Positions 12,280 through 44,296 of a stretch of 64,000 bases of DNA are shown here, piece after piece. The first letter of the stretch is position 1; each line of letters opens with the position of its first letter. The notes under the pieces are model-generated. The model was not told the origin of the DNA, made no database searches, and saw only the letters and a program-made list of their open reading frames with translations. The stretch lies in the NCBI RefSeq assembly GCF_000020525.1, contig NC_011026.1:496001-560000 (forward strand), written 5' to 3'. This DNA is from Chloroherpeton thalassium ATCC 35110 (GTDB taxonomy: Bacteria > Bacteroidota > Chlorobiia > Chlorobiales > Chloroherpetonaceae). A program made the position numbers and the translations under genes.

Positions 12280-13140
12280 TTAGAGGTGCTCGATTTCTTG
12301 AGCTGTCAGTCCAGTAATTTCTGATATTTCCTGAATCGGCATGCCTTTCGCCTTCAACACTCTGGCGATTTCATAATTTCTTTGCTCACAGCCTGCTTTT
12401 TGGCCTTCAAGCCAGCCTTCCTCTTTCGACGTATCCACAACATTTTTCATGTCGCGGTAATATTTCAAGCTCTCTTCGTAGGCGACGAGTTCATTTTTGG
12501 AAAACTTTGCAATTTCCGCTGCTTCAAACAATTTCTCAAAAATTTTTTCCTGAAACTTTGTCGGCCTCTTTTGCAATTGCGACAAATGGCGAAAAACATA
12601 CAACCATTTATCAAACTGCGTTTCCAGCTCGGCTTCCGTTTTCTTGAATTTTGGCAACTCGATGTAGATGAATTTCAGCTTATCGGAAAAACTTCGCTGC
12701 GCTGATTTTTTTAACGCCACAACATGAATTAGTTCAGCGTCCAATTTGTGATCATCGAATATGAAATCTAAAATGCCAACCGTATAAACCGGCTCTAATT
12801 TGTCATCCCAATTGCCGCGTTTGGCCTGTTCCTGAATCGGAAATGACGCGTAATAAATGCTTCGGTCTTTGAAATAATTTTGCTTGGCTTTTTGCACTTC
12901 CACAATGAAGCGCTCGCCCGACTGCCCGACGCAATACACATCGAAGATCGCTTTTCTATCCAATTCCTGTTGCCCGACATGCTCATTTTTGGAATAGCTC
13001 AACTCTTGAATTTGATGTTTTTCGGGTAAAATTTGGTTGAGAAAATCCATCAATAAGATCTTATTCGGCTCAGTTCCAAACAGCTTTTTGAAGCCAAAAT
13101 CCGTCAGCGGATTGATATATTTTTCCTGCAAATAGCTCAT
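12280..13140 (-). CDS. Rpn/PD-(D/E)XK nuclease family transposase-like protein
   Basis: 286 residues. The N-terminus (YINPLTDFGFKKLFG...KILLMDFLNQIL) is the hallmark of the PDDEXK nuclease family PF12784, related to recombination-promoting nucleases (Rpn). The nuclease core is visible as D67 (AIFDVYC) and EVQK at 81-84. The C-terminal 50 residues form a helical tail ending in GMPIQEISEITGLTAQEIEHL, a small helix-turn-helix-like segment typical of these proteins. Copies are usually numerous per genome and behave as accessory DNA; RpnA-type proteins promote RecA-independent recombination in E. coli. It lies 82 bases downstream of ecfT in the same direction, though a shared transcript is uncertain. 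Confidence 0.85.
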   Translation of the reverse strand: MSYLQEKYINPLTDFGFKKLFGTEPNKILLMDFLNQILPEKHQIQELSYSKNEHVGQQELDRKAIFDVYCVGQSGERFIVEVQKAKQNYFKDRSIYYASFPIQEQAKRGNWDDKLEPVYTVGILDFIFDDHKLDAELIHVVALKKSAQRSFSDKLKFIYIELPKFKKTEAELETQFDKWLYVFRHLSQLQKRPTKFQEKIFEKLFEAAEIAKFSKNELVAYEESLKYYRDMKNVVDTSKEEGWLEGQKAGCEQRNYEIARVLKAKGMPIQEISEITGLTAQEIEHL

Positions 13141-15927: not shown

Positions 15928-16779
15928 TTGTTACACTTCTTGCTACCGAAAGAATTGCACCCCATTTTTGACCATATTCCATCTTCAGCCCTGCATGTGG
16001 TGGGCTGGGGTTCTGTTTTGCCAAGCGTGATTACCGTCGGGCGGCGGCTCGCGTTTGATGAGGGAAAGCATGAGATGATTGCTGACCTCACGCCGTTGCT
16101 TCCGGCTCATGTGCAATTTTCTTTGGAGCATCGGCGCTGCCAGCATCACAGGCAGGATGACGAAGCGGATACACATCCTGGACTGATCAATGCCGAGCAT
16201 CTGAGCGAGGACGAAGCCGAAAGAAAGCGTTTCGGCGAAGCGGTTTTGGAAGTATTTTTCTCGCAGCTTTTTTCAGAAAAAGGGTTCTTTATTGACCTTA
16301 GAGAACATGGCTTCAGTTTGGATGCCGAAGCGATTTACTGGAATCCACCGAACCTTTGGTATCATCTCGAACATAACTTCCGCATCGGCTTGCTCAAGAT
16401 TTATGAGGGCTACTTTTTCGGACCGTTTTCTGAGGTCGAAGCGGGACTCAGCGATCTCGGACTTTTCACCGAAGATCATGCGTCTAATCAAAAGGTCGTG
16501 GATTTATTGCTTTCGCATTTCGGAACGGGCGAGCAACGCGATGTCCTTTTTGAGATTGAGCCGTTTGCCGAAAGCTTTGAGCAGTTCTTCGATTACCTCA
16601 AGGCAAAAAACATGCAGCTCGATGCCAATTTTATCTATTTCGGCATTTACCTGATTACGCTTTATCTCTGCCTCGATAAGCTAAAAGTCCCTCTGGATGC
16701 ACGCGAGGCATTTACAAATGCCCGCACCCGACTCGCTAAGGAAAACTTGGATAACCAGATGGACTCAGCGGTAAGTTAA
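15928..16779 (+). CDS. unknown protein, possibly frameshifted at its 5' end
   Basis: About 284 residues, no family recognised. Features are an N-terminal hydrophobic/aromatic stretch, a His-rich charged patch (EHRRCQHHRQDDEADTH) near residue 70, and helical acidic regions after that with WNPPNLWYHLEHNF and IYEGYFFGPFSEVEAGLSDLGLF. The open frame actually extends upstream to 15883 without an ATG; the only formal start there is TTG at 15928. A different frame beginning ATG at 15830 could supply a normal N-terminus if a -1 shift occurs in the T-run at about 15889-15895. It is the first of three plus-strand genes in the accessory block and lies about 220 bases before the AAA ATPase. Confidence 0.55.
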   Translation: MLHFLLPKELHPIFDHIPSSALHVVGWGSVLPSVITVGRRLAFDEGKHEMIADLTPLLPAHVQFSLEHRRCQHHRQDDEADTHPGLINAEHLSEDEAERKRFGEAVLEVFFSQLFSEKGFFIDLREHGFSLDAEAIYWNPPNLWYHLEHNFRIGLLKIYEGYFFGPFSEVEAGLSDLGLFTEDHASNQKVVDLLLSHFGTGEQRDVLFEIEPFAESFEQFFDYLKAKNMQLDANFIYFGIYLITLYLCLDKLKVPLDAREAFTNARTRLAKENLDNQMDSAVS

Positions 16780-16903: not shown

Positions 16904-16981
16904 TGACAATGATTTTGTTGTTAAAAGTTTTTGACAACAAACTTGTTGTCATTTATATTTGACAATAATTTTGTTGTCAAA
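16904..16981. promoter_or_regulatory. three tandem palindromes on a 28-bp period, probable operator
   Basis: The core TGACAA recurs at 16904, 16932 and 16960, exactly 28 bases apart, each followed by a TTGTTGT arm. The middle copy is a perfect inverted repeat: TGACAACAA (16932-16940), 2-base spacer, TTGTTGTCA (16943-16951). The third has arms TTTGACAA (16958-16965) and TTGTCAAA (16974-16981). The first is imperfect. The last copy ends 16 bases before the ATG of the ATPase gene, so a protein bound there would block its promoter or translation start. No obvious repressor gene lies next to it. Confidence 0.7.
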
Positions 16982-16997: not shown

Positions 16998-18206
16998 ATG
17001 GCATGGATAAGACCGAAAACGATTACCGGCCCGCCGGCAGAAGGTGAGCGTTACCTCAGACGAGAGTATATCAACAGCGGGTTTTGGCATCACATAAAAA
17101 GCGGCGCGCATATTGTTTTCTCAGCGCCCCGCCGTGTGGGCAAAACCTCGATTATGAAGGATTTGGCGAAAAATCCGCCCGAAGGCATTCTTGCGTTTTA
17201 TGACATCATTGAATCCGATAAGACGCAAAAAGATCTTTTCAAGCGGCTGTTCAATCTTTTGCTTGAAAGGACAAAAACACATGAAAGACTTTTTGAACGC
17301 ATTCGTCAATATTTGAAGGAAATAAAAATCGGCGGCGCTTCTGTAACTGGAGAAGCCGACTCAATCACAGGCGGGATTAATTTTGACAAAGTTGAACTTG
17401 ATTACAAAAATGAGTTACTTCGCTTAATTGAGCATCTTGGCAAAGAAAAAGTCCGCATTGTTTTTCTCTTGGACGAATTTCCCGAAGTAATTCGTTCCAT
17501 AGAACTTAGTGAGGGACAGCAGACGGCAATTGATACCCTGCACACGCTACGAGAAATTCGGCAGCACGAAAAGTTCAAAAACTTCACCTTCGTCTTTGCC
17601 GGCTCTATCGGGATTCATCATGTGGTGGCTTCTTTGGAGAGACCCGCGCTAATCAATGATCTTCATCCCATTCATGTTGAACAACTCACGAATGATGAGG
17701 CGCACGAACTCTTGGCGCAACTCCTCGACGGCGCCACCATGCAAATCGGCGATGACAAAAAAGCGTATTTCCTGCGAAAAATTGACCATCGGCTGCCCTA
17801 TTACATTCAATTGATGGTTGAAAAGTGCGACGAAATTTTGAACAAAGCAGGCCGCGACGTTTTAACAAACCATGACATTGACGCGGCGTTTGAAATGATC
17901 ATCAAAGAAGGCCGAAACTTTGACGATTGGGAATCGCGCTTGAAAAGATACGTTCAGCGCGAAGATGCGAAATATTGCATCGGCATTCTCACCCGTTGCG
18001 CTCATAGCGAACCGTATTCTATTCAGGAAGCTTACAATTATTCCAAGAAGGATGTTCCTGCCGCGCCATATAAGCAACTTTTAGACAACGTGCTGATAAA
18101 AGACGGCTACCTTGTTGAAGAAAATCGTAGCTACCGTTTCCTTTCGCCCTTTTTGAAAGAATGGTGGAAACATCGTCACCCGAAATTTGAAATTGAAGAT
18201 TTATAA
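16998..18206 (+). CDS. AAA ATPase with C-terminal winged-helix-like region (archaeal-ATPase/MNS type)
   Basis: 402 residues. ATG at 16998 is chosen because AAAGGAGGG precedes it at good spacing; an upstream TTG at 16959 falls inside the palindromes. Walker A is SAPRRVGKTS (42-51), Walker B VFLLDE (155-160), and the sensor-1-like strand is FTFVFAGSIG. The C-terminal 100 residues (IGILTRCAHSEPYSIQEAY...LIKDGYLVEENRSYRFLSPFLKEWW) look like the winged-helix end of the archaeal-type P-loop ATPase family (PF01637-like). Members of this family are common in accessory DNA and their function is mostly unknown. The strong ribosome binding site and triple palindrome suggest tight control. Confidence 0.8.
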   Translation: MAWIRPKTITGPPAEGERYLRREYINSGFWHHIKSGAHIVFSAPRRVGKTSIMKDLAKNPPEGILAFYDIIESDKTQKDLFKRLFNLLLERTKTHERLFERIRQYLKEIKIGGASVTGEADSITGGINFDKVELDYKNELLRLIEHLGKEKVRIVFLLDEFPEVIRSIELSEGQQTAIDTLHTLREIRQHEKFKNFTFVFAGSIGIHHVVASLERPALINDLHPIHVEQLTNDEAHELLAQLLDGATMQIGDDKKAYFLRKIDHRLPYYIQLMVEKCDEILNKAGRDVLTNHDIDAAFEMIIKEGRNFDDWESRLKRYVQREDAKYCIGILTRCAHSEPYSIQEAYNYSKKDVPAAPYKQLLDNVLIKDGYLVEENRSYRFLSPFLKEWWKHRHPKFEIEDL

Positions 18207-18231: not shown

Positions 18232-18790
18232 ACAAATGAGTGCCGTCCTGTGCCGGTTTTTTCCAATGCGGAAAAAGATCAATCGCTGAATAGCAAACGG
18301 CGCATTGTCATGCTGAGCCTTCTGAGGCGAAGCATCCATTTTTTCACATAACGTTGGATTCTTCGGCTAAGAAGCCTCAGAATGACATGATTCTGTTTTG
18401 CCGTCGGTAACGAGACGAAGACGATTAAGCAAATGAGTGCTGTTCTGAGCCGGATTTTTCCAATGCGGAAAAAGCTCTATCGCTGAATAGCAAACGGCGC
18501 ATTGTCATGCTGAGCCTTCTGAGGCGAAGCATCCATTTTTTCACATAACGTTGGATTCTTCGGCTAAGAAGCCTCAGAATGACATGATTCTGTTTTGCCG
18601 TCGGTAACGAGACGAAGACGATTAAGCAAATGAGTGCTGTTCTGAGCCGGTTTTTTCCAATGCGGAAAAAGCTCTATCGCTGAATAGCAAACGGCGCATT
18701 GTCATGCTGAGCCTTCTGAGGCGAAGCATCCATTTGTCACATAACGTTGGATTCTTCGGCTAAGAAGCCTCAGAATGACATGATTCTGTT
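18232..18790. repeat. 2.9 copies of a 197-bp tandem repeat containing an imperfect hairpin
   Basis: Units begin at about 18232, 18429 and 18626, exactly 197 bases apart, and are almost identical. Each contains TGTCATGCTGAG...GAAGCATCC followed about 18 bases later by GGATTCTTCGGC...CTCAGAATGACA, i.e. two roughly 32-base arms that fold into a long imperfect hairpin. The same arm sequences recur in the arrays at 21988-22612 and 24277-25070. The block separates the two ATPase genes, and its last unit runs up to the 5' end of the second. Confidence 0.9.
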
Positions 18791-18874
18791 TTGTCATCAC
18801 GAAGCCATTATCTACGCGCACTTCGTCTTCTCAGCTGGGCACGATATAAGTTTGAACATTTAGCTATAAGACAC

Positions 18875-21800
18875 ATGAACCCGATTACATTTTATCAGGC
18901 GGCGCATCTTACGGACGAAGAAGTCATACGCCAATTTGTCGTTCGGAAAAAAGAATTTGAGCGCGTCATCTCCGAAGTTCGGCGCGACGATATGCTGGGG
19001 TCGATACAGCACTATATTTTTGTCGGGCAGCGCGGGAGCGGCAAATCCACATTGCTCCGGCGCATTTTGGCCGAGATAAATACGGACGAGGCGCTTTCCG
19101 AAAAGCTTGTCGCCATTTATCCGAGCGAGGAACAGGCGGGCATTTATCGCCTGGACGACCTTTGGGATCGGGTTTGTCAGGAACTCCGGGAAATGAGATT
19201 TGAGACGGAGGAAGTCAAGTGGGAGGCGTATGAAAAGGACCACACCGGCTTTGCCAAAGCCCTTTACGGCGCGATGCAAAAAAGCCTTGCCGAAAAGGGC
19301 AAAAAGCTGGTTCTCCTGATCGACAATATCGACCGCATTTTTGACAGCATCAAGGTCAGCGATGATACGCATCTCTTCCGCGAACAGCTTATCAAATACA
19401 AGGATGTGCGCATCATCGGGGGCAGCACGCGCCTGAGCGAGCATTTTTGGCAATATGATCAGCCGTTTTACGAGTTTTTCCGAACGCTCCCGCTTGAACC
19501 GATGACGGAAGCCGAACTGAAGGAGTTGCTCCTATTTTGGAGCGATTTTCTCGGCGAACCCGACCTGAAAAAATTTGTAGAGAACAATCCGGGAAAGCTC
19601 AACGCCGTGCGCATCCTGAGCGACGGCATGCCTCGCACCATGCTCGGCTTGGTAGAGCTTTTTCTGAAGCAGCCCGACCGGCACGGCTACGATTACCTCC
19701 GCTACATTCTTGACCGCGCCACGCCGGTTTATCAGGAGCGGCTCGGCAAGCTTTCCCCGATGCAACAAAAGGTGGTGCTTGAACTTTCGTTTTTCTGGGA
19801 TGTCGCCAAGGTCAAAGACCTTTCGCAGGCGGCGCGTGTGGAGAGCAAAACGCTTTCCGCCTTGCTCGGCCAACTGACGGACTTGCAGATTGTGGAAAAA
19901 ATAAAAGGCACGGGCAAAAACCACCTTTACCGCCTGAAGGAACGCTTTTTTAACCTCTGGCTGATTATGACACAGGGCGGCCCGAGGGAGAAAAGCAGGG
20001 TAAAGTGGCTCACCATCTTCCTTGAAACTTGGTACGACGCAACCGAACTGAAAACAATTTACAGGGATTTTTCCACCCGATTGACCGAAGGAAAAATCAC
20101 CCCCGACCGCGCCGTCGTGATGACAAAGGCGCTGGCGCATTGCAGATATTTATCTATGGATGAACGGGATGAACTGTTAGAACAAACGAAAAAGTTGATA
20201 GGTAATCGCAAAGAGCATCTTGATTTTTTGCCGCCGAAAGCCGGTGACGTTTTTAAAAATGTGATTGGATTGATCGAGCAAAAGCGTTTGGATGAGGCAC
20301 AAAAAGAACTTGACAGCATTGAGCAAGATGGTGCTCTAAAACAGATGCTTCAGGGGCTTATTTATGACGAAAGTGGAAATTTCAATGAGGCCGAGAAATT
20401 CTATTTGATGGCTATTGACAATGGAGATGTTGGTGCCATGTTTGGCCTTGCCAATCTATACAAAGAGACGAACCGGAAAGAAGAGGCCGAGAAATACTAC
20501 TTGATGGCTATTGACAATGGAGATGTTCAGGCCATGAACAACCTTGCCAACATCTACCAAAAGACGAACCGGAAAGAAGAGGCCGAGAAATTCTACTTGA
20601 TGGCTATTGACAATGGAGTTGCTCAGGCCATGAACAACCTTGCCATTCTCTATGAAAATACAAACCGGAAAGAAGAGGCCGAGAAATTCTATTTGATGGC
20701 TATTGACAATGGGAATGTTAGTGCCATGTTCAACCTTGCCATTCTCTATGAAAATACAAACCGGAAAGAAGAGGCCGAGAAATTCTATTTAATGGCTATT
20801 GAGAATGGAGTTGCTCAGGCCATGAACAACCTTGCCATTCTCTATGAAAATACAAACCGGAAAGAAGAGGCCGAGAAATTCTATTTGATGGCCATTAAGA
20901 ATGGGGATGTTAATGCCATGAACAACCTTGCCCTTCTCTACCAAGAGACAAACCGGAAAGAAGAGGCCGAGAAATTCTATTTGATGGCTATTGACAATGG
21001 GAATGTTAGTGCCATGACCAACCTTGGTCTTCTCTACCAAGAGACAAACCGGAAAGAAGAGGCCGAGAAATTCTATTTGATGGCTATTGACAATGGGAAT
21101 GTTAGTGCCATGACCAACCTTGGTCTTCTCTACCAAGAGACAAACCGGAAAGAAGAGGCTGAAAAATTCTATTTGATGGCTATTGATAATGGACATGTTC
21201 AGGCCATGCTTGGCCTTGCCAACATCTACCAAGAGACGAACCGGAAAGAAGAGGCCGAGAAATTCTATTTGATGGCCATTAAGAATGGGGATGTTAATGC
21301 CATGAACAACCTTGCCCTTCTCTACCAAGAGACAAACCGGAAAGAAGAGGCCGAGAAATTCTATTTGATGGCTATTGACAATGGAGTTGCTCAGGCCATG
21401 AACAACCTTGCCCTTCTCTACAGAGAGACGAACCGAAAAGAAGAGGCTGAAAAATTCTATTTGATGGCCATTAAGAATGGGGATGTTAATGCCATGAACA
21501 ACCTTGCATTCTTGCTCTATGAGGAAAACCGTAATACGGAAAAAGCTTATTCTCTCATTGTCCGCCACAATGCAACAGAGCAAAAAAGTATAATCTCAAC
21601 GACGCTTGAAATGATTATCGCCGTTTGGTCGGGCAGGCCTGAGCGGCTTGAGTCGGCAGATGAATTGCTTCGAGAAATGGTAGAGAATAAAGATGTTACG
21701 TGGCTTGAACATTTCTTGCGAGAAATTCTAATTCATCATCAGAAAAATGTCGTGTGGGCGTGGTTTCGGCACGCGGAGTTCGGGCAACGTTTGATGGATA

Positions 21801-21976
21801 TGGCGAGGCCGCTTTATTATGCTACGGCGCGGCTTTTGAACAACAACGAAACAGAGGAAACGCTGCTTGCGCAAGCGCCGGAGCTTCGGGAAACCGTTGA
21901 TAAGATTTATAATGATATCATGGAGCGGCAGGAGTTTTATTACGGCAAGGGGAAACAAGCCAGCCCGAGCGCCTAA
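18875..21976 (+). CDS. P-loop ATPase fused to twelve 32-residue Sel1/TPR-like repeats
   Basis: About 1033 residues from ATG 18875 (a TTG at 18791 inside the repeat block is less likely). Residues 1-350 are an AAA/STAND-like ATPase: Walker A GQRGSGKST at 51-59, Walker B LVLLIDNIDR at 145-154, sensor strand VRIIGGSTRLSE. A winged-helix-like region follows at about 310-400 (LSPMQQKVVLELSFFW...LYRLKERFFNLWL). Residues about 505-888 hold twelve consecutive 32-residue units of the pattern EAEKFYLMAIDNGxVxAMNNLAxLYxETNRKE; repeats are nearly identical in DNA (96-bp period). A non-repeated tail of about 145 residues closes the protein. The layout (sensor repeats on an NTPase) resembles STAND/NLR-type signalling or defence proteins; the function is unproven. 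Confidence 0.85.
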   Translation: MNPITFYQAAHLTDEEVIRQFVVRKKEFERVISEVRRDDMLGSIQHYIFVGQRGSGKSTLLRRILAEINTDEALSEKLVAIYPSEEQAGIYRLDDLWDRVCQELREMRFETEEVKWEAYEKDHTGFAKALYGAMQKSLAEKGKKLVLLIDNIDRIFDSIKVSDDTHLFREQLIKYKDVRIIGGSTRLSEHFWQYDQPFYEFFRTLPLEPMTEAELKELLLFWSDFLGEPDLKKFVENNPGKLNAVRILSDGMPRTMLGLVELFLKQPDRHGYDYLRYILDRATPVYQERLGKLSPMQQKVVLELSFFWDVAKVKDLSQAARVESKTLSALLGQLTDLQIVEKIKGTGKNHLYRLKERFFNLWLIMTQGGPREKSRVKWLTIFLETWYDATELKTIYRDFSTRLTEGKITPDRAVVMTKALAHCRYLSMDERDELLEQTKKLIGNRKEHLDFLPPKAGDVFKNVIGLIEQKRLDEAQKELDSIEQDGALKQMLQGLIYDESGNFNEAEKFYLMAIDNGDVGAMFGLANLYKETNRKEEAEKYYLMAIDNGDVQAMNNLANIYQKTNRKEEAEKFYLMAIDNGVAQAMNNLAILYENTNRKEEAEKFYLMAIDNGNVSAMFNLAILYENTNRKEEAEKFYLMAIENGVAQAMNNLAILYENTNRKEEAEKFYLMAIKNGDVNAMNNLALLYQETNRKEEAEKFYLMAIDNGNVSAMTNLGLLYQETNRKEEAEKFYLMAIDNGNVSAMTNLGLLYQETNRKEEAEKFYLMAIDNGHVQAMLGLANIYQETNRKEEAEKFYLMAIKNGDVNAMNNLALLYQETNRKEEAEKFYLMAIDNGVAQAMNNLALLYRETNRKEEAEKFYLMAIKNGDVNAMNNLAFLLYEENRNTEKAYSLIVRHNATEQKSIISTTLEMIIAVWSGRPERLESADELLREMVENKDVTWLEHFLREILIHHQKNVVWAWFRHAEFGQRLMDMARPLYYATARLLNNNETEETLLAQAPELRETVDKIYNDIMERQEFYYGKGKQASPSA
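20387..21538 (+). repeat. 96-bp tandem coding repeats, 12 units
   Basis: In-frame direct repeats inside the ATPase gene. The unit starts GAGGCCGAGAAATTCTA and repeats at 20387, 20483 and on to about 21538. Units differ mainly at the codons for the residues after DNG and around AM(N/T/F)NL, while the rest is almost invariant even at third codon positions. This indicates recent duplication or gene conversion. Confidence 0.9.
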
Positions 21977-21987
21977 CTTTGCTGCCT

Positions 21988-22612
21988 TGTCATGCTGAGC
22001 GAAGTGAAGCATCCATTCGTGACATTGTGGATTCTTCGCCTATCGGCTCAGAATGACATTTGCTTTCACATGTCACAACAGTATCCCATGTTTTGTCATG
22101 CTGAGCGAAGTGAAGCATCCCTTCATGAGCGTGTGGATTCTTCGCCATGAGGCTCAGAATGACATGATTTTTTGCCATTCAGAATGACATGATTTCTTGT
22201 CTGTCATGCTGAGCAGCGCGAAGCACCCATTCGTGACATTGTGGATTCTTCGCCTATCGGCTCAGAATGACATTCGCTTTCGCCATTCAGAATGACATTT
22301 GCTTTCACATTTCACAACAGGATTCCTTGCCTTGTCATGCTGAGCGAAGTGAAGCATCCCTTCATGAGCGTGTGGATTCTTCGCCATGAGGCCCAGAATG
22401 ACATTTGCTTTCGCCATTCAGAATGACATTTGCTTTCACATTTCACAGCAGGATTTCTTGTCTTGTCATGCTGAACGAAGTGAAGCATCCCTTCATGAGC
22501 GTGTGGATTCTTCCCTATCGGCTCAAAATGACATTTGCTTTCGTTCATTCAGAATGACATTCGCTTTCACATTTCACAACAGGATTCCTTGTCTTGTCAT
22601 GCTGAGCTGATG
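21988..22612. repeat. array of about five hairpin repeat units plus a partial copy
   Basis: Units start TGTCATGCTGAGCGAAGTGAAGCATCC, then a short loop, then GGATTCTTCGCC...GGCTCAGAATGACA, at about 21988, 22095, 22202, 22335 and 22463, with a truncated arm at about 22594. Spacers contain repeated CATTTGCTTTCACATTTCACAACAG-like segments. The orientation (GCATCC arm first) is the same as the block at 18232-18790, so the ATPase-repeat gene is bracketed by direct copies. Confidence 0.85.
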
Positions 22613-24199: not shown

Positions 24200-25075
24200 A
24201 CGAAACGAGCGCGAAAATTCATCCGAGCCATTCTGAATGGCAAAAACTCATGCCATTCTGAATGAACGAAAGCTAATGTCATTCTGAGCCGATAGGCGAT
24301 GAATCCACATGCTCATGAATGGATGCTTCACTTCGCTCAGCATGACAGAAAAAAATCATGTCATTCTGAGCCGATAGGCGATGAATCCACACGCTCACGA
24401 ATGGATGCTTCGCGCTGCTCAGCATGACAAGACAAGAAATCATGTCATTCTGAGCCGATAGGCGATGAATCCACATGCTCACGAATGGATGCTTCACTTC
24501 GCTCAGCATGACAAGACAAGAAATCATGTCATTCTGAGCCGATAGGCGATGAATCCACATGCTCACGAATGGATGCTTCGCGCTGCTCAGCATGACAAGA
24601 CAAGAAATCATGTCATTCTGAGCCGATAGCCGAAGAATCCACACGCTCACGAATGGATGCTTCGCGCTGCTCAGCATGACAAGACAAGAAATCATGTCAT
24701 TCTGAGCCGATAGGCGATGAATCCACACGCTCACGAATGGATGCTTCGCGCTGCTCAGCATGACAGAAAAAAAATCATGTCATTCTGAATGGCAAAAACT
24801 CATGCCATTCTGAATGAACGAAAGCTAATGTCATTCTGAGCCGATAGGCGATGAATCCACACGCTCACGAATGGATGCTTCGCGCTGCTCAGCATGACAA
24901 GACAAGAAATCATGTCATTCTGAGCCGATAGCCGAAGAATCCACATGCTCACGAATGGATGCTTCGCGCTGCTCAGCATGACAGAAAAAAAATCATGTCA
25001 TTCTGAGCCGATAGCCGAAGAATCCACATGCTCACGAATGGATGCTTCACTTCGCTCAGCATGACAGAAAAAGCT
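24200..25075. repeat. array of nine roughly 84-bp hairpin repeat units
   Basis: Units starting TGTCATTCTGAGCCGATAG lie at about 24277, 24359, 24443, 24527, 24611, 24695, 24829, 24913 and 24996. Each runs through GAATCCAC, CACGAATGGATGCTTC and GCTCAGCATGACA. Short degenerate pieces (CATTCTGAATGGCAAAAACTCATGCC) lie at 24230 and 24780. This is the same hairpin family as at 18.2 and 22.0 kb, but inverted (the GAATCC arm first). Open frames through it are repeat artefacts. Confidence 0.9.
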
Positions 25076-42034: not shown

Positions 42035-44296
42035 TTATTCCAATTCTTGTATGATCTTTAAAAGCTCCTGCGCTCTATACACATGCGGATATTTCTCTAA
42101 CAGCCTTTTTGCTTCTGTTAAATTGCTTTTATTGTTGTCCGATAGCATAGCGCCTAAAATTAGCGTATTCGCATAATCAATATCATAAACGCTTGGATTC
42201 TCCTTTGTGAGTTGTCGTCTTATCTCTAAGGCTTCATTGTAAGCGTTGAGGGCGGCTTCGTATTCATGTTTATCAGAGTGCAAAATTGCCAAGTTGTTCA
42301 ATGTAGTAGCCACATAAGGCAAAAAAGCGTCAGGATTGCGCCGCGCGAGTTGTCGTCTTATCTCTAAGGCTTCATTGTAAGCGTTGAGGGCGGCTTCGTA
42401 TTCATGTTTATCAGAGTGCAAAATTGCCAAGTTGTTCAATGTAGTAGCCACATAAGGCAAAAAAGCGTCAGGATTGCGCCGCGCGAGTTGTCGTCTTATC
42501 TCTAAGGCTTCATTGTAAGCGTTGAGGGCGGCTTCGTATTCATGTTGATCAGAATGCAAAGTTGCCAAGTTGTTCAATGTAGTAGCCACATAAAGCAAAA
42601 AAGCGTCAGGATTGCGCCGCGCGAGTTGTCGTCTTATCTCTAAGGCTTCATTGTAAGCGTTGAGGGCGGCTTCGTATTCATGTTTAGCATAATGCAAAGT
42701 TGCCAAGTTGTTCAATGTAGTAGCCACATAAGGCAAAAAAGCGTCAGGATTGCGCCGCGCGAGTTGTCGTCTTATCTCTAAGGCTTCATTGTAAGCGTTG
42801 AGGGCGGCTTCGTATTCATGTTTAGCATAATGCAAAGTTGCCAAGTTGTTCAATGTCATGGCAACATCGGGCAAAAAAGCGTCAGGATTGCGCCGCGCGA
42901 GTTGTCTATAAATGCTTAAGGCTTCATTGAAAGCGTTGAGGGCGGCTTCGTATTCATGTTGATCAGAATGCAAAAGTCCCAAGTTGTTCAATGTAGTAGC
43001 CACATAAGGCAAAAAAGCGTCAGGATTGCGCCGCGCGAGTTGTCGTCTTATCTCTAAGGCTTCATTGTAAGCGTTGAGGGCGGCTTCGTATTCATGTTTA
43101 GCATAATGCAAATTTGCCAAGTTGTTCAATGTCATGGCAACATTGGGCAAAAAAGCGTCAGGATTGCGCCGCGCGAGTTGTCTATAAATGCTTAAGGCTT
43201 CATTGAAAGCGTTGAGGGCGGCTTCGTATTCATGTTGATCAGAATGCAAATTTGCCAAGTTGTTCAATGTCATGGCAACATCGGGCAAAAAAGCGTCAGG
43301 ATTCTCCTTTTCCTGCTCTCTGTATTTTTTCAGGGCATTTTCATAATAATCGCCGGCATCACGAAATGAATTCTGTTTCTGCAAGAAGTAGGCGCAGTTA
43401 AAATAATTTTCCGCAGAAGGTTCTAATGCGAGAAGCTCGGTGTATAAATCTTTTGTCGCTTCGATGGCAAAAAGGGCTTGGGTTGCTTTGATAGATTCTT
43501 TTAAGGCTTTGATTTTCTTTTGCTCGGCTTCCGCTTCTATTTGTTTTTCTATTAAAAAATACTCGTCTCTTATTTTTCCGGCGTTGCCTTCTTCAAAATA
43601 TTTTTGAATCGTCTCTAAAAACGAGGCCAGCTCGGTATTGCCTTCGGCCTTCAATTTCTTAATTTCCGCCGATAACTCCTTATTATATTTATAAATAGCA
43701 GTGACGGCCACAAAGAGCAATTCTTTTTCCGTCGCCGAAATTTTCCGCTCGTCATACCATTCCTGAATTTTCTCTCTCGTCTTGCGCTCGCCGTTCTTTA
43801 TCGGTAAGTCCTTCAAATACCGTTCAACATCGCGCGGGTCAAGGCCGGCTTGCAGCAGCAGCTTGTCCATTTTTTCAGATGTTTCCGAAATGCCGCTTTT
43901 TATCTGCTCTTGGCCTTGGGCTAACGCTTCGGTATTTTCAAGTATTTCTTTCTCCGCACTTGGAAATAACAGGCCATATAAAGCCGATGAAAACACATTC
44001 AACCCGACGCTTAAAACAACCGTCGCAACCAGCGTTCCCGACAAAAGCCATTTTTCAATTTTTATCAGGTGAAGAATGACTTCATAAGGGTTTAGGCTGA
44101 AATCGCGGAACAGTCCGTTTTCATAGAGGGAAGGCAGTACAAGCAGCCAAAGAAAACCGGAAAGAAGCAATCCGATCGGCCAACCGGCACGAACAAAAGC
44201 TTTCAGCCGGTTAGTATGACGGAAATACCACGCGCTTCCCAAGAGCGCAAGGCCGTAAAGCATCAGCCATTTATATTGTTGGAGAAATGCTTGCAT
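42035..44296 (-). CDS. membrane-anchored coiled-coil protein with eight 46-residue TPR repeats
   Basis: 753 residues. Three hydrophobic segments at about 10-27, 37-57 and 84-110 anchor it in the inner membrane. A charged coiled-coil region follows (about 115-280, rich in E, K, Q). One typical TPR lies near 300, and then eight nearly identical TPR units of 46 residues, consensus NPDAFLPxVAxTLNNLAxLHxxxHEYEAALNAYNEALEIRRQLARR (about 335-700). A shorter tail ends the protein. TPR arrays bind other proteins; the partner is unknown. The repeats differ mainly at a few positions (Y/N/D after LP, LxxLHxDxH), and DNA identity is very high, so this is a recently homogenised array. Confidence 0.85.
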   Translation of the reverse strand: MQAFLQQYKWLMLYGLALLGSAWYFRHTNRLKAFVRAGWPIGLLLSGFLWLLVLPSLYENGLFRDFSLNPYEVILHLIKIEKWLLSGTLVATVVLSVGLNVFSSALYGLLFPSAEKEILENTEALAQGQEQIKSGISETSEKMDKLLLQAGLDPRDVERYLKDLPIKNGERKTREKIQEWYDERKISATEKELLFVAVTAIYKYNKELSAEIKKLKAEGNTELASFLETIQKYFEEGNAGKIRDEYFLIEKQIEAEAEQKKIKALKESIKATQALFAIEATKDLYTELLALEPSAENYFNCAYFLQKQNSFRDAGDYYENALKKYREQEKENPDAFLPDVAMTLNNLANLHSDQHEYEAALNAFNEALSIYRQLARRNPDAFLPNVAMTLNNLANLHYAKHEYEAALNAYNEALEIRRQLARRNPDAFLPYVATTLNNLGLLHSDQHEYEAALNAFNEALSIYRQLARRNPDAFLPDVAMTLNNLATLHYAKHEYEAALNAYNEALEIRRQLARRNPDAFLPYVATTLNNLATLHYAKHEYEAALNAYNEALEIRRQLARRNPDAFLLYVATTLNNLATLHSDQHEYEAALNAYNEALEIRRQLARRNPDAFLPYVATTLNNLAILHSDKHEYEAALNAYNEALEIRRQLARRNPDAFLPYVATTLNNLAILHSDKHEYEAALNAYNEALEIRRQLTKENPSVYDIDYANTLILGAMLSDNNKSNLTEAKRLLEKYPHVYRAQELLKIIQELE
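42200..43305 (-). repeat. 138-bp tandem coding repeats, 8 units
   Basis: In-frame direct repeats inside the TPR gene; the marker AAAAAAGCGTCAGGATT recurs every 138 bases (for example at 42321 and 42459). Variation is limited to short variant blocks (ACTTTGCATT/AATTTGCATT/AAAATTGCC and TATAAATGC/GTCTTATCTC), shared in mosaic fashion among units. Confidence 0.9.

Follow-up and report, generated by a model that had tools for sequence, protein, structure and literature searches.

Pairs of Orc/CDC6 proteins in mobile defence neighbourhoods, one of them with a disrupted Walker B motif, have been described together with a KAP NTPase, REases or fused NACHT, TIR or pentapeptide parts (PMC10853773). 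They are the nearest precedent for the A1-A2 locus of Chloroherpeton thalassium, which lies in the 64,000-nucleotide stretch of DNA analysed here (the window, to which the coordinates in Table 1 refer). Like these pairs, the locus has an operon of two ATPases of the ORC/Cdc6 type, with a Walker B that is disrupted in one of them; what sets it apart is a tetratricopeptide repeat (TPR) array and the lack of any conserved third gene. No paper on the A1-A2 pair was found in the literature, the ORC/CDC6 defence studies coming nearest, and the DefensePredictor passages available to us do not name it.

Two further groups of STAND NTPases resemble A2. Avs and the bacterial NLR-like proteins belong to the same NTPase superclass and carry a C-terminal superhelical repeat sensor. 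Compared with them, A1-A2 is devoid of an N-terminal effector, is usually a pair with a second ATPase and has an array of palindromes at its promoter, and no PADLOC model matches either protein well. MalT-type STAND transcription factors consist of a STAND ATPase, a TPR-like sensor and a DNA-binding helix domain. A2 has all three elements; A1-A2 departs from this type in the position of the winged helix between ATPase and TPRs, in the partner ATPase and in an apparent regulation of nothing but itself. The ORC-CDC6-like family PF24389 of the PRTase-CE system gives a weak match to the A2 N-terminus (E 7e-9, residues 1-66), and that system adjoins A1-A2 in Moraxella. A2 fails to match PF24389 over its 571 positions, and the Moraxella neighbour that does match is a separate protein (E 1e-136). 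A1-A2 appears to add a new variant of two genes to the ORC/Cdc6-STAND NTPases, and is probably a self-regulating sensor switch.

Composition and fold class of the A1-A2 pair

Table 1. Features of the A1-A2 locus and other elements of the window discussed in the text.
Feature	Position	Strand	Remark
PD-(D/E)XK transposase-family protein	12280-13140	-	PDDEXK_2, E 4e-80
283-aa gene	15928-16779		upstream of A1
Palindrome 1, ATGACAATGATTTTGTTGTTAA	16903-16924	.	operator-like
Palindrome 2, TTGACAACAAACTTGTTGTCAT	16931-16952	.	28 bp from palindrome 1
Sigma-70-type promoter, TTGACA-17-TATATT	16931-16959	+	11/12 matches, best site of the region
Palindrome 3, TTGACAATAATTTTGTTGTCAA	16959-16980	.	28 bp from palindrome 2; perfect TTGACAA-N8-TTGTCAA
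A1 (partner ATPase, about 402 aa)	16998-18206	+	upstream of A2
197-bp dispersed repeat	18233-18793	.	2.9 copies, between A1 and A2
A2 (TPR ATPase, 1033 aa)	18875-21976	+	ORF from ATG 18875 to stop 21976; P-loop NTPase, then repeats
A2 Walker A, GQRGSGKST	19025-19051	+	
A2 Walker B, LLIDNID	19313-19333	+	no catalytic Glu
A2 winged-helix domain	19754-19951	+	relatives match MarR_2/TrmB weakly
A2 TPR array	20387-21538	+	twelve 96-bp units of 32 residues
A2 helical C-terminal cap	21539-21973	+	conserved
Tandem expansion of dispersed element	21988-22607		
Tandem expansion of dispersed element	24276-25072		
Second near-identical TPR protein	42035-44296	-	46-residue units (138 bp), 7.9 copies, 93%

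A1 has the Walker A sequence APRRVGKTS, a GSIG motif and a complete Walker B, LLDEFP, in which the Asp and the Glu are invariant among 22 homologues; its C-terminal region looks winged-helix-like by eye. The Walker B of A2 takes the form hhhDN, in which an invariant Asn151 (alignment of 27 homologues) occupies the place of an acidic catalytic residue after the Asp. A2 matches the profiles nSTAND1 (2e-6) and AAA_22 (1e-8). In the model of its N-terminal part (pLDDT 77, built from 8 sequences), the P-loop domain, a helical lid and the winged helix are predicted to adopt the ORC/Apaf arrangement of a STAND/ORC-Cdc6 AAA+ NTPase. The best Foldseek matches of this model are Cdc6/Orc1 on origin DNA, Apaf-1, CED-4 and Avs5, all of them remote; 2qby and 2v1u reach E 1e-8 at a low TM of 0.3-0.4. 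A search with full-length A2 was discarded as a guide to the ATPase, on which it is uninformative because TPR proteins such as OGT dominate its matches. Both A1 and A2 are ORC/Cdc6-STAND-type ATPases. No effector domain is visible in either protein by profile searches; in A2 the P-loop domain begins at most 45 residues from the N-terminus, and no other family is matched. A1, whose Walker B is complete where that of A2 is not, would be the partner ATPase and probably provides or completes hydrolysis when the two form a mixed complex.

A1 and A2 are conserved neighbours across Bacteroidota and on Moraxella plasmids, being adjacent in almost all of the close relatives and in the majority of the distant ones. 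Identity to the window pair is 52-60% for A1 and 59-67% for A2 at loci L034 and L035, 33-47% at L036-L043, and 20-30% in Chlorobiaceae and Moraxella plasmids. Among 394 genomes of the phylum, A2 occurs in 34 and A1 (presence cut-off E<1e-40) in 24, all of which are among the 34 (P=8e-31), and the distance matrices of the two proteins are closely correlated (r=0.98, P=0.0005, 20 loci). The intergenic gap is -4 to about +12 bp in most relatives; in the window it contains the 197-bp repeat. A2 is found without a full A1 in ten Chlorobiaceae genomes and on Sphingobium and Agrobacterium plasmids. Two of the Chlorobiaceae genomes have decayed A1 remains beside A2, in L055 (G181 C27:25052-25327) and L053 (G299 C33:11035-11142).

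The sequence-only reading had linked A2 to a palindrome-controlled ATPase, and the co-occurrence, the co-divergence and the palindromes that accompany the pair bear this out. It had also envisaged a block of three genes travelling together, with the 283-aa protein as third member, which does not hold. The 283-aa gene has no relative near any A1-A2 homologue, its product has no family match in profile searches, and it was ruled out; a search for any other conserved third gene by clustering of all neighbours gave local synteny only. The unit consists of two genes, A1 and A2, whose products may form an NTPase switch that is complete in itself and moves horizontally.

A dispersed palindromic element (TGTCATGCTGAGC...GAAGCATCC...TCAGAATGACA) surrounds the pair. 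Its genomic matches, about 65 in number, cluster around A1-A2, and in the window it forms three tandem expansions, including the copies between the two genes. A PD-(D/E)XK transposase-family protein is also encoded nearby.

The TPR array of A2 and its ligand-facing positions

TRF describes the A2 array with a period of 96, 11.7 copies, 87% matches and a score of 1531, far beyond chance. Units 1-11 are 79-100% identical to one another at the DNA level, with two identical pairs (units 6 and 10, units 7 and 8), and unit 12 is degenerate (68-81%). The twelve 32-residue repeats behind an ATPase that were read from the sequence are therefore real. Their supposed near-identity at silent positions is borne out only in part, between-unit pS being 0.28 and pN 0.13. 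The repeats match TPR_10 (E 1.5e-48) and TPR_1 (4e-41) in Pfam, with Sel1 at merely 4e-4, and the predicted array structure is composed of regular 13-residue helix pairs (pLDDT about 90). They are TPRs in a 32-residue form common to close relatives and, being recognised as such, do not constitute a new family of repeats. The 32-residue period, noted from the sequence as shorter than the usual 34 to 36 of TPR or Sel1 repeats, recurs in the close relatives L039, L042 and L043.

The period is 35 residues in one Chlorobiaceae clade, 34 in L060, L064 and L065, and 43 in L058, L059 and L061, and the array ranges in length from about one unit in L040 to twelve in the window gene. Array length and period vary among relatives, and the ATPase-winged-helix part and the C-terminal cap are conserved. 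The TPR array is independently replaced between lineages inside conserved ends. Homogenised arrays are also present in L039, L042, L049 and L051, the last holding 5.7 copies of a 105-bp unit (93%).

TPR positions 2, 5, 9, 12 and 13 are the concave ligand-contact positions (PMC1261162), and alignment to the TPR profile equates them with A2 unit positions 16, 19, 23, 26 and 27. Ranked by variability, unit positions 14, 16, 19, 26, 23 and 27 come first, and these six out of 32 include all five ligand positions (hypergeometric P=3e-5). This agrees with the concentration of changes after DNG and around AMxNL noticed earlier. The ligand positions have a pN of 0.43 and a pS of 0.36, and the remainder of the unit, loop positions 14-15 excluded, has a pN of 0.037 and a pS of 0.24 (pN/pS 0.16). 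Since unit pairs are not independent, these values are suggestive, not proof, of diversifying selection on the ligand-facing positions, and the general variability of contact positions in TPR families counts against it.

An alternative is that A2 is an ordinary TPR ATPase whose repeat near-identity stems from a recombination-prone genome and not from recognition. Expanded non-coding tandem repeats flank the locus on both sides, and the window encodes a second protein with near-identical TPRs, in which hydrophobic N-terminal segments precede the repeats and an ATPase is absent. Repeat near-identity alone is weak evidence for this reason, and the second array, the variability of contact positions in general and the non-independent unit comparisons leave genome-wide slippage as a conceivable source of the homogeneity. 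Against neutral slippage stand the replacement differences, which are mostly ligand-facing, where pN equals or exceeds pS, and similarly homogenised arrays of the same gene in unrelated genomes, and we regard it as quite improbable. The ligand-facing variation and the fold matches support the description of A2 as a STAND/ORC-Cdc6-group NTPase with a recognition-type array. A2 would be pictured as the sensor of the pair, with the concave face of its TPR solenoid as the binding surface for a ligand, either a peptide or a protein. The TPR units may be amplified and shuffled via unequal crossing-over or conversion, under selection for change at the contact positions.

Palindromes at the A1 promoter

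Three imperfect palindromes of about 22 bp, placed at 28-bp spacing, overlap the A1 promoter. The -35 hexamer lies inside the left arm of palindrome 2, and the -10 hexamer in the gap that separates this palindrome from palindrome 3. The host genome contains a single copy of the perfect palindrome, with few other near-matches. The layout recurs in relatives with other letters, as in TTGACTATA..., TTGCCAATA... and, from a Moraxella plasmid, TTAACTATAAAATTATAGTTAA. A pair of similar palindromes spaced 26-29 bp apart and scoring at least 26 precedes 12 of 21 A1 genes compared with 1 of 348 other genes. With a spacing of 22-60 bp and a score of at least 24, the numbers are 26/30 A1 relatives and 15/347 control genes (rank-test P=7e-15, which overstates the independent cases because the loci are related). 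This control-gene comparison replaced a three-palindrome shuffle test, which is underpowered for single loci. The score was devised after the first eleven loci had been inspected; among later loci, L045, L046, L057, L058, L060, L084, L086, L087, L089, L090 and L094 pass it and L050, L088 and L092 fail, as does L039 of the first set. An operator-like palindromic array at the pair's own promoter, conserved across relatives, points to an autoregulated operon.

Palindromes also stand immediately before solo A2 genes (on Sphingobium and Agrobacterium plasmids; in L064, L065 and, in weaker form, L059), which favours A2 as the binder. In some Chlorobiaceae that have lost A1, the array is decayed or lost although A2 is kept, so that A1 as the binder fits equally well. 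At rest, the pair would sit on the three promoter palindromes and keep expression low, with the winged helix of A2 as the most likely DNA contact. Once a ligand occupies the TPR array, the pair would come off the DNA, expression would rise and the active complex would be driven to assemble.

Palindromes that resemble iterons beside an initiator-like gene could also mark a relic of a mobile replicon, in which ORC/Cdc6-type proteins and adjacent iterons form a replication-initiator-like module; the best fold matches, to Orc1/Cdc6 on origin DNA, would suit this. It is hardly credible, as the palindromes fall on the promoter itself, the pair is not accompanied by any conserved gene for a helicase or for replication, and initiators are not marked by an expandable TPR sensor.

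Genomic neighbourhood and proposed role

Several distant relatives lie among defence genes. In one arrangement on Moraxella plasmids, A1-A2 is followed by dUTPase, PRTase-CE, ORC-CDC6-like, CARF and methylase genes; in the other, the next gene overlaps it and is PD-Lambda-4/Avs4-like, with a further large protein behind it. Qat genes precede A1-A2 on one Moraxella plasmid, pNP7-2 (L102:1-16686), where the Qat genes, a kinase, A1-A2 and the PRTase-CE/ORC-CDC6/CARF/methylase genes form one directional run. In L063:7122-14217, also a Moraxella plasmid, the gene that overlaps A2 encodes 1248 aa with PD-Lambda-4_A and Avs4-like parts, and the large protein after it runs past the locus end. Pycsar and AbiE genes lie alongside the Sphingobium A2, and two cyclase genes and a ThiF gene alongside the Agrobacterium A2. 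The ten closest relatives and the window show no neighbouring defence signal beyond generic matches. The defence role proposed from the sequence is thus backed only indirectly, by the distant plasmid-borne relatives and not by the closest ones or the window; the proposal ran ahead of the evidence, and defence is the leading but unproven role.

Phage records and viral contigs contain no A1-A2 relative, and a phage or viral origin was rejected. Membership in a PADLOC system was rejected as well, the models giving only weak matches (best E 0.003 for A1 and 2e-4 for the A2 ATPase), with the remaining A2 matches falling in the TPRs or the C-terminus. A weak similarity to 'mad8' (E 2e-4) was observed.

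The promoter palindromes and the winged helix, together with the lack of defence genes around the ten closest relatives, would also suit a MalT-like regulator, in which ATP-dependent TPR-sensing of a cellular (metabolic or stress) signal acts mainly on its own promoter and has no anti-invader role. The few other palindrome near-matches in the genome leave A1-A2 little to regulate but itself. Moreover, distant relatives reside in defence clusters, a constant metabolic ligand would not lead one to expect turnover of the array at its ligand positions, and the distribution is patchy (34/394 genomes). We consider such a regulator somewhat unlikely.

On balance, the evidence leans towards A1-A2 as an autoregulated TPR sensor-switch that is probably defensive. 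Its most likely role would be the detection of an invader through a phage or plasmid product, with an output provided by the ATPase complex on DNA or, where present, by a neighbouring effector gene. A bolder proposal is unlikely: that an effector-less ORC/Cdc6-type ATPase pair, with one catalytic member and one fast-evolving TPR receptor, is seated on a co-diverging promoter array, which it leaves upon ligand binding for assembly on (invader) DNA, and so represents a categorically new immune or regulatory logic.

A1-A2 would be a bacterial receptor whose sequence gives access to the turnover of its repeats, its contact residues, its partner ATPase and its control sites on DNA. If defensive, it would be a TPR-sensing, autoregulated two-ATPase type in Bacteroidota and on Proteobacteria plasmids that PADLOC models miss. 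The clade-specific palindromes may provide a natural data set on the co-evolution of protein and operator in ORC/Cdc6-like proteins.
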